From positions 1-64,000 of the forward strand of contig CAJXNI010000010.1 of assembly GCA_913057235.1 (NCBI GenBank): a stretch of DNA of 64,000 bases, given 5' to 3'. The position numbers and the translations under genes are program-made. Position 1 is the first letter of the stretch. Each line of letters begins with the position of its first letter. This document shows positions 24,549-40,396 of the stretch, in pieces. The notes below the pieces were generated by a model that saw nothing but the letters and a program-made list of their open reading frames with translations, ran no database searches and had not been told where the DNA came from. The DNA is from an uncultured Bacteroidota bacterium. GTDB taxonomy: Bacteria; Bacteroidota; Bacteroidia; Flavobacteriales; Schleiferiaceae.

Positions 24549-24899
24549 ATGCTAATAGAGGTTGTTAAATCAAAAATTCACCGGGTTTCGGTAACCGGAG
24601 CTGACCTGAATTACATGGGCAGCATTACTATAGATGAAGAGTTGTTGCGGGCCAGCAATATTATAGAAGGGGAAAAGGTAAGTATTGTAAATGTGAACAA
24701 TGGGGAGCGTTTAGATACTTATGTGATAAAAGGAGCAGCCGGTTCAGGTGAAATTACCTTAAACGGCCCCGCTGCGCGCAAAGTGCAAAAAGGCGATGTG
24801 ATTATCATCATTGCCTACGCCCAAATGAGCCCTCAAGATGCGCAAGCTTTTAAGCCTGCCATTGTATTCCCCAATGAAGAAACCAATCGCCTAAACTAA
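24549..24899 (+). CDS. panD: Aspartate 1-decarboxylase
   Basis: 116 residues. Makes beta-alanine from aspartate for PanC. Self-processing occurs between Gly24 and Ser25 (NYMGSITID), forming the pyruvoyl cofactor on Ser25; both residues are present, as are the N-terminal KSKIHRV and the C-terminal [20 protein letters not shown] blocks. Directly downstream of panC and immediately abutting the next gene. Confidence 0.97.
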
Positions 24900-36038: not shown

Positions 36039-37649
36039 ATGAGGTTTCGACTTTTTTTAACGGTGGCCCTGCTGTTTGTTTTAGTCGTGGTCAGCAGTTA
36101 TGTGTTTACCGGTTGCGCCAGCCGTTCGGCCCCCAGCGGAGGGGAGAAAGATACCCTCGCGGCCGGTCTGGACACCAGCTTTCCGCCTAATCAGAGTATT
36201 TATTTTACTGCCAAGGAAATTACCTTAATCTTTGACGAGTACATCAACCTTAAAAGTGCCCAGCGGCAAATTTTAATCTCCCCACCCTTGGCAGAGCCGC
36301 TGGAAATTGAAGCCCGCGCCCGGGAAGTGATCATTACGCTTAATGATTCTTTAAGAGCCAACACCACCTACATTATTTCTTTTGGGGAGGCCGTTACCGA
36401 TTACACCGAAGGCAACGTGACAAAAAACCTGAAGTATGTTTTTAGCACCGGTAGCTACATAGACAGTTTAAGTTTATCTGGCACCGTAAAGCAGGCCTTT
36501 AGTGGCACGGCTGATGAAGACTTACTAGTGGCGCTTTACAACGTAAATCAAATTGAGAAACCCGATTCTTTTTTATACCAACAGCTGCCCAACTACTACG
36601 CCAATCTTACCGAAGAGGGCACCTTTACCATGACCAACCTTAAAGCAGGTCAGTACCGTTTGGTGGCTTTTGCCGATAGAGGAGGAGATTTCAAGCTCAA
36701 TACAGGTAAAGAGCGCTTCGCCTTTTGGCCAGAGGTAATAAACTTGCAGCCCGATAGCACCTACCAATACAACCTACGCAGTTACGAGCCAGCGCCTGAA
36801 TTTAGGTTTTACAACGCTCGGCATAAAGCCAAAGGTAAAATAGTCTTTGCTTTTTCGGCTCCGGCCGATAGCTTCTCCATTGACCCACTAAATATTCCTG
36901 CCGACAGCAGCTTTTTTGAAAGTAACGCCAAAAATGACACCCTCACTTTTTGGTTCAATTGTGCCAGAGATTCGGCCAAGTTTCGCTTGAACGGAGCAGG
37001 TTTCACCGACTCGGTAATCACCGTTTTCTTGCGTAAATACCAAGAGCCCAACTTAGAATTAAAGGCCCAAAAAACAGATCTGCGAAGTTTTGACACCCTG
37101 GTGCTAGAGAGCAATTTGCCTCTGCTGAATTTTACCAAAGACAGCATCTTTTACTACGGCAAAGACACGCTTAATCAGGCGATAGTTCTAGATTCGGCCA
37201 GAGGGTTTAAAGGCTACGTGTACCCACCGTTTCGGCAAGACTTTTCTTTGAAACTGATGGGTGGGGCCGTGCAATCTTGGATAAACGCTCAGTTTGACAG
37301 TGCCGACTTTACTTTTAAGGTGCTAAAGAAAGACGACCTGGGCACCTTAAATTTTACCGTAAAGGCCGATACCGGATTTGCCTATGAATTAAAGATGCAA
37401 ACCGAAGGTGGTAAATTACTGCTCACCCAGCACTTTGAAGACAGCCTAACCGTGCAGCTAAAGAATTACCTCCCTGGTAAGCTCAAAGCCTTTTTGGTGC
37501 AAGATCTCAATAGAGATAAAAGCTATACCCCTGGTGATTTTGAAACCGGTCGCTTGCCTGAGCCCCGCATTATTTACAAAGAAGAGATTGAAATAAGGGC
37601 CAACTGGGAGTTGGATTTACTTTGGCAGGTAAAATCACTACGTGATTAA
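36039..37649 (+). CDS. Ig-like domain lipoprotein
   Basis: 536 residues from ATG at 36039 (ATG at 36024 is possible). Lipobox FTGC (Cys26). The start of the mature protein matches the bacterial Ig-like (Big_5/SbsA-type) family of Bacteroidota: PSGGEKDT...FPPNQSIYFTAKEITLIFDEYINL, followed by YIISFGEAVTDYTEGN. The rest is beta-rich. The family is widespread in the phylum and of unknown function. Its end overlaps the convergent nitrilase gene by 12 bases. Confidence 0.85.
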   Translation: MRFRLFLTVALLFVLVVVSSYVFTGCASRSAPSGGEKDTLAAGLDTSFPPNQSIYFTAKEITLIFDEYINLKSAQRQILISPPLAEPLEIEARAREVIITLNDSLRANTTYIISFGEAVTDYTEGNVTKNLKYVFSTGSYIDSLSLSGTVKQAFSGTADEDLLVALYNVNQIEKPDSFLYQQLPNYYANLTEEGTFTMTNLKAGQYRLVAFADRGGDFKLNTGKERFAFWPEVINLQPDSTYQYNLRSYEPAPEFRFYNARHKAKGKIVFAFSAPADSFSIDPLNIPADSSFFESNAKNDTLTFWFNCARDSAKFRLNGAGFTDSVITVFLRKYQEPNLELKAQKTDLRSFDTLVLESNLPLLNFTKDSIFYYGKDTLNQAIVLDSARGFKGYVYPPFRQDFSLKLMGGAVQSWINAQFDSADFTFKVLKKDDLGTLNFTVKADTGFAYELKMQTEGGKLLLTQHFEDSLTVQLKNYLPGKLKAFLVQDLNRDKSYTPGDFETGRLPEPRIIYKEEIEIRANWELDLLWQVKSLRD

Positions 37650-38426
37650 AAAGCGGTCTTGATCATTTAAAAAAGCGAAGCGCTTACGCGTTCCTTGCAG
37701 GTGCTGGTAATTCAATTTAGTGATGTGTACAATTGCTTCACCGGCTGGCGCTTTCCAAACCAACTCGCCTAAGGGATCCAGCACCCGGGAGTCTCCGGAA
37801 TGATCCACGTTATTCCCATCTGGGCCCACCCGGTTTAGGCCGGCTACGTAGCATTGGTTTTCTATGGCGCGGGCGGTTAGTAAACTTTTCCAGGCAAAAC
37901 TTCTACGAGCCGGCCAATTGGCTACAAAATACTGCAAGTCAAAATGCTCTTGGTTTCGGCACCAAGCCGGAAAACGCAGGTCATAACAAATTTGCGGATT
38001 GATACGCCAGCCTTTGTATTCCAACACTAGTTTTTCTGTGCCCGGTTGGTACGCCTTTTCTTCTCCCGCTAAGGTGAACAGATGGCGTTTGCGGTAAATA
38101 TGATAATGTCCATTGGGCTCCACAAAATAAAGCTGATTGTAAAATTTACTGGACTCTTTAATAATAACGCTTCCGCTGAGTGCCGTGCTGAATTTTTCAG
38201 CCATTTCCTGTAGCCATGCTAAAGTAGTTCCATTGGTATGTTCAGAGAGCTTTTGCGGATTCATGCTAAAGCCCGTGGGAAACATTTCGGGTAGCAAGGT
38301 GAGATCTGCTCCTTGAACTTGAGGCAGAAGATTTTCAAAATGCGCCAAGTTCGCTTTTTGGTCTTCCCAGTGCAGGGCAGACTGAATGAGGGCTAACTGA
38401 AAATTTTGAGGTTCTGGTGCGGGCAT
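37638..38426 (-). CDS. Carbon-nitrogen hydrolase (nitrilase superfamily, omega-amidase-like)
   Basis: 262 residues, normal length. Catalytic triad visible: Glu in LLPEMFPTGFS, Lys in YRKRHLF and Cys in PQICYDLRFP. The closest named relatives by these motifs are YafV/NIT2-type omega-amidases, which hydrolyse 2-oxoglutaramate; the substrate here is inferred. Overlaps the convergent lipoprotein gene by 12 bases. The 335-base gap upstream of it (38427-38761) carries the small-RNA candidates. Confidence 0.9.
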   Translation of the reverse strand: MPAPEPQNFQLALIQSALHWEDQKANLAHFENLLPQVQGADLTLLPEMFPTGFSMNPQKLSEHTNGTTLAWLQEMAEKFSTALSGSVIIKESSKFYNQLYFVEPNGHYHIYRKRHLFTLAGEEKAYQPGTEKLVLEYKGWRINPQICYDLRFPAWCRNQEHFDLQYFVANWPARRSFAWKSLLTARAIENQCYVAGLNRVGPDGNNVDHSGDSRVLDPLGELVWKAPAGEAIVHITKLNYQHLQGTRKRFAFLNDQDRFLIT

Positions 38427-38476
38427 AACCTATTATTTTTGGATTTTCAAGGACCTCATTTTAACCAAATTTTGGC

Positions 38477-38563
38477 TATCTTTGGGCAAAAGCTCCAAAA
38501 AGTTTTTTCATTTTTATGTTTTAGTTTTCGTTTAAGCCCTCTGTAGTACAGGGGGCTTTTTTT
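38477..38563 (+). ncRNA. Candidate small RNA 1 with own terminator
   Basis: A -7-like box TATCTTTG (38477-38484) is followed about 50 bases later by a strong hairpin: AAGCCCTCTGT (38534-38544), loop AGT, ACAGGGGGCTT, then T-rich DNA to 38563. The terminator orientation is plus, but no plus-strand gene precedes it, since the flanking genes are on the minus strand. A transcript of roughly 75 nt starting near 38489 would explain it. No good -33 box was found, which weakens the call. Confidence 0.4.
38534..38563 (+). terminator. Plus-strand terminator hairpin
   Basis: Eleven-base stem with one G-U wobble, three-base loop and T-run on the plus strand. Its minus-strand complement has no T-run, so it must serve a plus-strand transcript arising within the gap. 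Confidence 0.75.
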
Positions 38564-38606
38564 AGGTGGTATAAAAGTGAGGGCGCCAAGGATTTTTTCA
38601 CATTTA

Positions 38607-38637
38607 TTTGGTGGTTAAAAAATTTATAGTACTTTAG
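38607..38637 (+). promoter_or_regulatory. Promoter-like pair before small RNA 2
   Basis: TTTG (38607-38610), exactly 19 bases, then TACTTTAG (38630-38637), one mismatch from TAnnTTTG. The spacing is the standard Bacteroidota distance. The predicted start is near 38642. Confidence 0.5.
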
Positions 38638-38640
38638 AAG

Positions 38641-38752
38641 GACTTAACAGGGTTCTTCATTTTTATAGGGAAATAGGGTTAGTAATCTACAGATTCCAAA
38701 TAACACTGTTAAGATGTGAAAGCGGGAGTTGCAGAGTCTCCCGCTTTTTTTT
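38641..38752 (+). ncRNA. Candidate structured small RNA 2 (possible 6S-like)
   Basis: About 110 nt. CTTAACAG (38643-38650) and CTGTTAAG (38706-38713) are perfect 8-base complements that would close a large internal loop of about 55 nt; the transcript ends in the hairpin AGCGGGAG/CTCCCGCT (38721-38745) with a run of T. A long terminal stem closing an internal bubble with length near 110 nt is reminiscent of the 6S-Flavo RNA family, but I could not test the family model. The RNA lies between minus-strand genes, so it would be independently expressed from the promoter-like pair just upstream. Confidence 0.42.
38719..38752 (+). terminator. Plus-strand terminator of small RNA 2
   Basis: AGCGGGAG (38721-38728) and CTCCCGCT (38738-38745), followed by seven T. 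Only three T follow the hairpin on the minus strand, so termination of the viaA-like gene ending at 38762 would be weaker. Confidence 0.75.
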
Positions 38753-38761
38753 GCCTTAATC

Positions 38762-40396
38762 TTAAATCTGGCGCGTGTTGATTTCTTTAAGATTTTGATG
38801 CAGTGTTTTCACCAAATCTTTTTTCTCAGGGTGGTAAGCCCATACATTATCAAATTGACCAATTACTTCCTCATTGGCTTGGTCTGTAATGATGAGGCTA
38901 TGAAATTGCGTGCCATGGTTGTGTTGCTGTTTTTCCATGCGTTCCAGCAAGTCATCACTAATTTTATACATGATAAAATCAGAGATTACCAATACGTCAG
39001 CATCGCGGTAACGGTGGTTTTCCAACTGAGTGAGCGCTTCATTCAAAGCCAGGCTAATATCTGTACCCCCGTGAAAGGATTTTTTCAAGAAGGCGGCTAC
39101 CTCATCAATGCTGTCTACCAAATTGTACAAATCAACGGTGTGTATGCCGCTGCTAAAATTGATTAAAAAGGCCTGCCGGTCTTCTTCGGCCGCCATTTTT
39201 AAAATGCCAAAACACAATACTTTTGCAATGCGCTCCGGCTCACCTTCCATGCTTCCGCTGGTGTCAACACACACAATAAACGGCCCTTTTTCTTTCTTTT
39301 TTATACGTTGAAAGCTTTCGCTGAAAACTTTGTTGCTGCTTACCAGCTTGCGGTCTTGGTAGCGATTTACGTTCAATTGATCGTCTGCAAAGCGCTTTAA
39401 AAACTGCCATTCTGTAGTGTCACCAAAGAGGGCCACCTCCGTGGGAAGAAGGTTGTTGAGGTCATCACCGGAGCGTACGCCCACAATTTCACTTTTAAGG
39501 TTGGGATCTTTCACCCATTCTTTACGGATTACAATTTTCTCGTAGGTTTCCTCTTCGGTTTCAATTTCAGCCTTACGCAAGCGGCCTAAAAGCTGAGCTA
39601 GTTTTTTGAGTTCCTCTTCATTTTCCAATAGTTGGTCGTAGCGCTCTACCAAATCTAAGGTTTGGTCTTCCCAAAGGGCCCGGCTCATATCCCAGTAGCG
39701 CGAAATATGCTCGGTAAAAGGCTTCACCAGGCTGGTCAATTTTTTATACTCCTGCACTTTAGCTTCAAGCTTTTCCTTGTAGTCCTCTTTTTTATCGCGC
39801 AGCTTAGTCATCTGGTAGGTGAGAATTTTACTTTGCAGGCGCGCGTCCCATTGCCCCAAAAGATCGGTGTAAACACGTTCTATGGCCGATCGATCATCTT
39901 CGGTGAGTTCTTCGTAGTCTTTATCACCAATCAGCTCTTTCAGCTTGCTTTTATGAAAACTAGGATCCAATTCTTCTTTAGGATAAAAGCTGCTTACTTT
40001 TTGAATGAGAAAAGTCCAGCTGCGGGTAAATTGCCGCAGGTGCCTAATGCCCCAGCTTTCCAGTTCACGCTGCTCATCTTCATAAGGGTGTTTTTGAGCT
40101 ACTTCTTTATAGGCTTTTCTGAACCAGGCCAGTGTGTCGGCCACCACTTGTTGGTTGAGCAACTGATTTTGCTGCGCCAACTCTTTTAAATCCGGGTCAT
40201 CAAAAAGATCGTCTAGCGCCTCTTTGAAGTAATTAAAGTAGTCGCTTTTGAGTTCTGCTAAATCTGCGGGCTCACCGGTAAGTAATTCTTTTAGGTAAGC
40301 CACAAAATATTTTCGGGTGGGGCGGTCCAGCACTTGCCCAAATTCAATAAAGCGCTGGTATTCTTCTTCTATTTTGTCAATTTTTGCTGTAGCCAT
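38762..40396 (-). CDS. VWA-domain protein, ViaA-like partner of a MoxR ATPase
   Basis: 544 residues. The C-terminal von Willebrand factor A domain (about residues 365-540) has the metal-binding motif DTSGSM and HGGTDI, as in ViaA/CoxE-type proteins; the N-terminal 350 residues are helical and highly charged. Its ATG shares one base with the stop of the upstream RavA-like gene (TAATG), so the pair is translationally coupled. RavA-ViaA systems are linked to respiratory-complex assembly and metal insertion in enterobacteria; the role here is inferred. Confidence 0.82.
   Translation of the reverse strand: MATAKIDKIEEEYQRFIEFGQVLDRPTRKYFVAYLKELLTGEPADLAELKSDYFNYFKEALDDLFDDPDLKELAQQNQLLNQQVVADTLAWFRKAYKEVAQKHPYEDEQRELESWGIRHLRQFTRSWTFLIQKVSSFYPKEELDPSFHKSKLKELIGDKDYEELTEDDRSAIERVYTDLLGQWDARLQSKILTYQMTKLRDKKEDYKEKLEAKVQEYKKLTSLVKPFTEHISRYWDMSRALWEDQTLDLVERYDQLLENEEELKKLAQLLGRLRKAEIETEEETYEKIVIRKEWVKDPNLKSEIVGVRSGDDLNNLLPTEVALFGDTTEWQFLKRFADDQLNVNRYQDRKLVSSNKVFSESFQRIKKKEKGPFIVCVDTSGSMEGEPERIAKVLCFGILKMAAEEDRQAFLINFSSGIHTVDLYNLVDSIDEVAAFLKKSFHGGTDISLALNEALTQLENHRYRDADVLVISDFIMYKISDDLLERMEKQQHNHGTQFHSLIITDQANEEVIGQFDNVWAYHPEKKDLVKTLHQNLKEINTRQI

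Follow-up and report, generated by a model that had tools for sequence, protein, structure and literature searches.

In the 64,000-nt window (the whole stretch of DNA analysed here), one gap between minus-strand genes very probably holds two small-RNA genes, namely RNA1, a trans-encoded RNA of the antisense type that would block translation initiation, and RNA2, an independent structured small RNA (Table 1). The original prediction placed two small RNAs in this gap and dwelt on the second, which it proposed to be 6S-like; RNA1, on which it said little, is the more interesting of the two. Every element that it described is present base for base, including two plus-strand terminators between minus-strand genes, whose T-runs lie on the plus-strand side alone, and perfectly complementary 8-mers 55 nt apart in RNA2. 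The promoter element TATCTTTG of RNA1 had been missed. The proposal of two small RNAs stood up, with promoter, body and terminator kept across genera; the 6S assignment of the second did not, as discussed below.

Table 1. Features of the two-RNA locus, numbered by position in the window
Feature	Position	Strand	Remarks
Carbon-nitrogen hydrolase (PRK10438-like amidohydrolase) gene	37638..38426	-	Flanking gene; domain/family search
Gap with both RNAs	38427-38761		Minus-strand genes on either side
RNA1 -7 promoter element TATCTTTG	38477..38484	+	Perfect match to consensus TAnnTTTG
RNA1, candidate trans-acting small RNA, ~75 nt	38490..38563	+	Start inferred from promoter element
RNA1 pairing segment	38499..38532	+	Complement of the target mRNA leader plus start codon; nearly invariant
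RNA1 intrinsic terminator	38534..38563	+	11-bp stem, T7, -16.7 kcal/mol
RNA2 promoter-like region TTTG-N19-TACTTTAG	38607..38637	+	TTTG at 38607, TACTTTAG at 38630-38637; TAnnTTAG-like elements at equivalent place in relatives
RNA2, structured small RNA, ~110 nt	38643..38752	+	Putative start
RNA2 closing stem P1, 5' arm CTTAACAG	38643..38650	+	Covariation
RNA2 inner hairpin P2	38662..38693	+	100% paired, nearly invariant, 17 genomes
RNA2 P2 loop GAAATAGGGTTAGTAA, 16 nt	38670-38685	+	Hardly varies, 17 genomes
RNA2 closing stem P1, 3' arm CTGTTAAG	38706..38713	+	Covariation
RNA2 intrinsic terminator	38719..38752	+	10-bp perfect stem, 9-nt loop, T8, -17.3 kcal/mol
VWA protein gene, ViaA-like	38762..40396	-	Flanking gene; match below NCBIfam cut-off

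A terminator scan over 1.2 kb returned 7 sites compared with 1.6 +/- 1.2 in shuffled sequences; its loop limit was 8 nt, and the second terminator of the gap, with a 9-nt loop, is therefore not among the sites listed. Folding by itself was modestly unusual (z -1.8 and -2.2). We regard the gap as non-random because both RNAs are conserved and score far above the next matches. A sequence model identified RNA1 in 24 genomes from 10 genera, all of one Flavobacteriales family (scores of at least 40 bits; next match 28.4 bits), and a structure model run on 396 genomes of the order identified RNA2 in 17 genomes from 6 genera (scores of at least 83 bits; next match 26.7 bits). The two RNAs occur together in 16 genomes, and RNA2 occurs without RNA1 in one (G030). 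The gap DNA has matches in further genera of this family (Owenweeksia/Cryomorphaceae-like), the exact RNA2 core is found in records of Owenweeksia, Cryomorphaceae and unclassified Flavobacteriales or Bacteroidetes, and the hydrolase gene adjoins the RNA locus in relatives at the loci examined. No Rfam family reached threshold in the 64-kb window or in 14 related loci.

RNA1 is present in one copy per genome and, as judged from its sequence, has an independent promoter as well as an intrinsic terminator. A TAnnTTTG-like element precedes it in most relatives; the terminator stem changes freely in sequence among them, with the hairpin and U-run kept. The GAAGAGC at its 5' end is conserved in relatives and altered in the genome of the window. 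On its own the RNA1 body folds into a largely unstructured form, and its U-rich pairing segment centres on GTTTTTTCATTTTT[A/G]TGTTTTAGTTTT.

In reverse complement the pairing segment reads ACGAAAACTAAAACATAAAAATG, a sequence that turns up again in trans at start codons; start regions of mRNAs from other loci thus show conserved complementarity to RNA1. In seven genomes (G000, which is that of the window, and G003, G012, G018, G021, G027 and G067) the RNA1-complementary gene is orthologous and encodes an exported protein of ~119 amino acids. Its start region has 22-27 nt of uninterrupted complementarity to the RNA1 of the same genome; computed duplex energies range from -28 to -36 kcal/mol, and their z-scores relative to shuffled RNA1 from -4 to -8; in the genome of the window the duplex has -34 kcal/mol, with a z of -6.5 against the 51 ORF starts of the window. 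Departures of the leaders from the consensus are A-to-G substitutions, so that a G.U pair still forms, except for extra A's before the ATG in G000 and G027. The target gave no significant Pfam or NCBIfam family, and its AlphaFold model (pLDDT 73) gave weak matches to TolA/TonB C-terminal domains (best E 0.077), which weakly suggests a TolA/TonB-domain-like fold.

Upstream of the target gene, a sigma54-type element, GG-N10-GC at -46 to -49, is found together with TGTTC...GAACA palindromes in six of the seven target-bearing genomes; the target of the window's genome, with an extra A in its leader relative to the consensus, has neither the sigma54-type element nor the palindromes. In most relatives the target gene is divergent from an NtrC-type regulator: in G003 the Pfam domains of this response regulator are Response_reg, Sigma54_activat and HTH_8, and similar regulator starts could be seen by eye in the other divergent regions, with none in the genome of the window. 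At the target loci L100, L101, L109, L111, L112 and L113 the palindromes are in tandem and lie, with GG-N10-GC, beside the NtrC-type regulator. A -24 element at -46 implies an mRNA start at about -22. This putative start is where the complementarity begins, and RNA1 would therefore cover nearly the whole leader.

RNA1 appears to have coevolved with its main target, a change or loss on the RNA side having its counterpart on the target side, although these events are few. In genus g9 the RNA1 segment carries UGUG in place of UAUG, and the orthologous leaders (G008 and G033) carry CACA in place of CATA. The two g9 leaders pair with g9 RNA1 at -31.1 and -25.3 kcal/mol and more weakly with RNA1 of other genera, at -22.8 to -26.6 and -20.3 to -21.4 kcal/mol, respectively; the z-score of the G033 duplex is only -1.3. 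These g9 leaders (L135 and L136) also have a hairpin inserted between two RNA1 half-sites, and pairing would therefore form a three-way junction. In G030, RNA1 is gone from its syntenic place, with RNA2 and the hydrolase gene still there. The G030 ortholog of the target has kept the regulator start and the palindrome and has lost the RNA1 site, the longest remaining helix being 8 nt. Compensation in g9 and joint loss in G030 each amount to a single event, and neither depends on the other.

Initiation in Bacteroidota works without Shine-Dalgarno sites and is tuned by the bases immediately before the AUG (PMC6847099; PMC7366714), so that the leader and AUG form the natural region to cover for blocking initiation. 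We consider it most likely that RNA1 is a trans-acting small RNA of a new family that blocks translation initiation in a GibS/FopS-like mode. Its mostly unstructured, U-rich body would anneal to the short, A-rich leader and start codon, and the resulting duplex, under which nearly all of a ~22-nt sigma54-type leader would lie, would keep the ribosome from initiating. RNA1 thus appears to switch off exported-protein genes, with repression as the direction that we infer. One may go further and regard RNA1 and the NtrC-type regulator as parts of one dedicated circuit, the pairing segment having evolved into an almost complete antisense of the ~22-nt leader, and RNA2 as a new class of structured RNA whose invariant loop binds a protein or ligand and does not pair with mRNAs; we hold this combined reading to be rather unlikely. 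It is improbable that RNA1 activates its targets instead, for example by shielding the mRNA 5' end or by opening a leader structure. Pairing does begin at the putative 5' end of the leader, g9 leaders do contain a hairpin between the half-sites, and in Flavobacterium a target mRNA falls upon deletion of Rfp18 (PMC9723704), but the start codon itself lies within the duplex, which should block initiation, and in most genomes the leaders are too short for an inhibitory structure.

Beyond the main target, weak matches to the RNA1 model numbered 24 in the 24 RNA1-containing genomes as compared with 14 in the 372 others. In the former they sit at or near gene starts, mainly of exported or envelope proteins, such as a CarboxypepD_reg protein in g15, a DUF4252 protein and its look-alikes, a LiaF-TM protein and predicted lipoproteins, among others. 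A more specific test used the triplet in AAAANNNAAAAATGA. CAT accounted for 14 of the 68 trans sites of eight genomes with RNA1, as against 2 of 149 in eight genomes without it (Fisher p ~2e-6) and 0 of 74 in RNA1-lacking genomes of the same family (Fisher 1.5e-5), p-values that are optimistic since the genomes are related. Some of the 14 CAT sites are unconvincing as targets, e.g., one ahead of a dehydrogenase-like protein, and in the genome of the window the main target is the sole strong one found. Other exported or envelope proteins, varying by genus, are predicted as further targets.

These data also bear on whether the complementarity is a by-product of the A-rich leaders common in Bacteroidota, with RNA1 a real RNA of some other function. 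Such leaders are widespread in the phylum (PMC6847099), so weak complementarity to start codons is expected, and start-codon matches also arise in control genomes; as five of seven inspected control sites lie at start codons, this position alone does not discriminate. However, the triplet-specific enrichment is confined to RNA1-containing genomes, orthologs match over 22-27 nt, and RNA1 and its site changed together in g9 and were lost together in G030, all of which makes a by-product quite improbable. Hardly any credence is due to a minus-strand leader peptide or gene-start remnant (ATGAAAAAACTT, MKKL...) resembling gene starts through shared coding ancestry, as MKKL is readable on the reverse strand in most relatives, as in many target genes, but the frames diverge after it, with lengths of 4 to 64 amino acids and no ATG in G017, the plus strand is the one indicated by the promoter and terminators, and conservation is as strong in the pairing segment ahead of the ATG as in the rest.

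Among known systems, an initiation-blocking RNA1 most resembles FopS and GibS of Bacteroides thetaiotaomicron. In these RNAs, too, an extended seed at the 5' end is single-stranded and precedes the intrinsic terminator, and they bind mRNAs around the start codon, often those of outer-membrane proteins, again in a phylum that lacks Shine-Dalgarno sites (PMC11697453, PMC7366714). FopS-10 blocks initiation on susC mRNA in vitro in Bacteroides (PMC11697453), and the same start-region block has been proposed for GibS (PMC7366714). RNA1 appears to differ from both in sequence, and it differs in bacterial order, in its single copy per genome, in having a target beside an NtrC-type regulator and in being known from sequence alone. 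The Rfam scan at E <= 10 gave no FopS or GibS match to the gap, although FopS may lie outside that Rfam release. Rfp18 of Flavobacterium psychrophilum is likewise a conserved Flavobacteriales small RNA affecting exported proteins (PMC9723704); going by its description, it is set apart by its strong structure, by pairing via its third stem-loop and by the lowering of target mRNA upon its loss. RteR (RF04181) shows weak similarity to RNA1 through the terminator and a U-rich stretch (27.9 bits, E 0.025), far below its gathering score of 72, and RNA1 was not assigned to RteR.

For RNA2, the closing stem covaries, with both sides changed in three of eight pairs, a result matched by 0/500 and 1/500 shuffles. 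RNA2 is most likely a regulator that acts through its invariant loop. We lean slightly towards short-seed pairing of this loop with mRNAs over binding of a protein. The 16-nt apical loop is held in a covarying stem, and GGTTAGTAATCT recurs in a further small-RNA-like element of the locus (see below). On the other side, RNA2 has no extended mRNA complement, as a 28-nt complement was found only at RNA2 itself and 17-nt complements were not above control in 12 genomes (17 trans matches compared with 30 for the reversed control), and protein binding would explain the loop invariance equally well. Pairing between RNA1 and RNA2 was computed at -29 kcal/mol, a value without control that is spread over scattered short helices.

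Two further elements were observed. In several relatives a third small-RNA-like element is divergent from RNA1 (L092:~1650-1800 on the plus strand, L187, L188 and others), with promoter-like TATATTTAG/TATATTTG, then GGTGTTAGCGACA...TATTAGGTGTTATTTGGTTAGTAATCTTG, then a terminator; it is this element that has GGTTAGTAATCT in common with RNA2. The genome of the window also contains a diverged RNA2 copy (L032:253-327, minus strand; C26, ~24754-24828; 21.2 bits), which keeps the loop core AUAGGGAAAUAGGGUUA within different stems. The strand opposite this copy is terminator-like, with T8, and lies between carboxylesterase-like and peptidase-like genes.

That RNA2 is instead a 6S-like RNA, an open-promoter mimic bound by RNA polymerase, is extremely unlikely. 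It is comparable to 6S-Flavo (RF01685; PMC2864571) in its ~110-nt length and closing stem, and it has a large internal loop, but it is limited to 17 of the 396 genomes of the order and its conserved part is the apical loop. A permissive Rfam scan (E <= 10) found no 6S family in the gap, and RF01685 has one match elsewhere in the same genome, at C9:72227-72336 (L001:1501-1610), which is full length, although its 53.3 bits (E 1e-7) fall short of the 85 set as gathering score; on these two grounds we rejected 6S-Flavo membership for RNA2. The C9 match, which is followed by an RNase Y-like reading frame as read from the sequence, probably fills the 6S slot of this genome. Because a full-length match obtains 53.3 rather than 85 bits, the Rfam 6S-Flavo model seems to under-score the Flavobacteriales family of the window.

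To our knowledge, trans-acting small RNAs with defined targets have been described in very few Bacteroidota, most of them Bacteroides. For one Flavobacteriales family, the comparison of sequences now yields a small RNA together with its main target, the regulator of that target, a change that compensates for another and a case in which RNA and site were lost jointly. RNA1 would also illustrate how initiation may be blocked where Shine-Dalgarno sites are not used, with a very short leader being covered together with the start codon.
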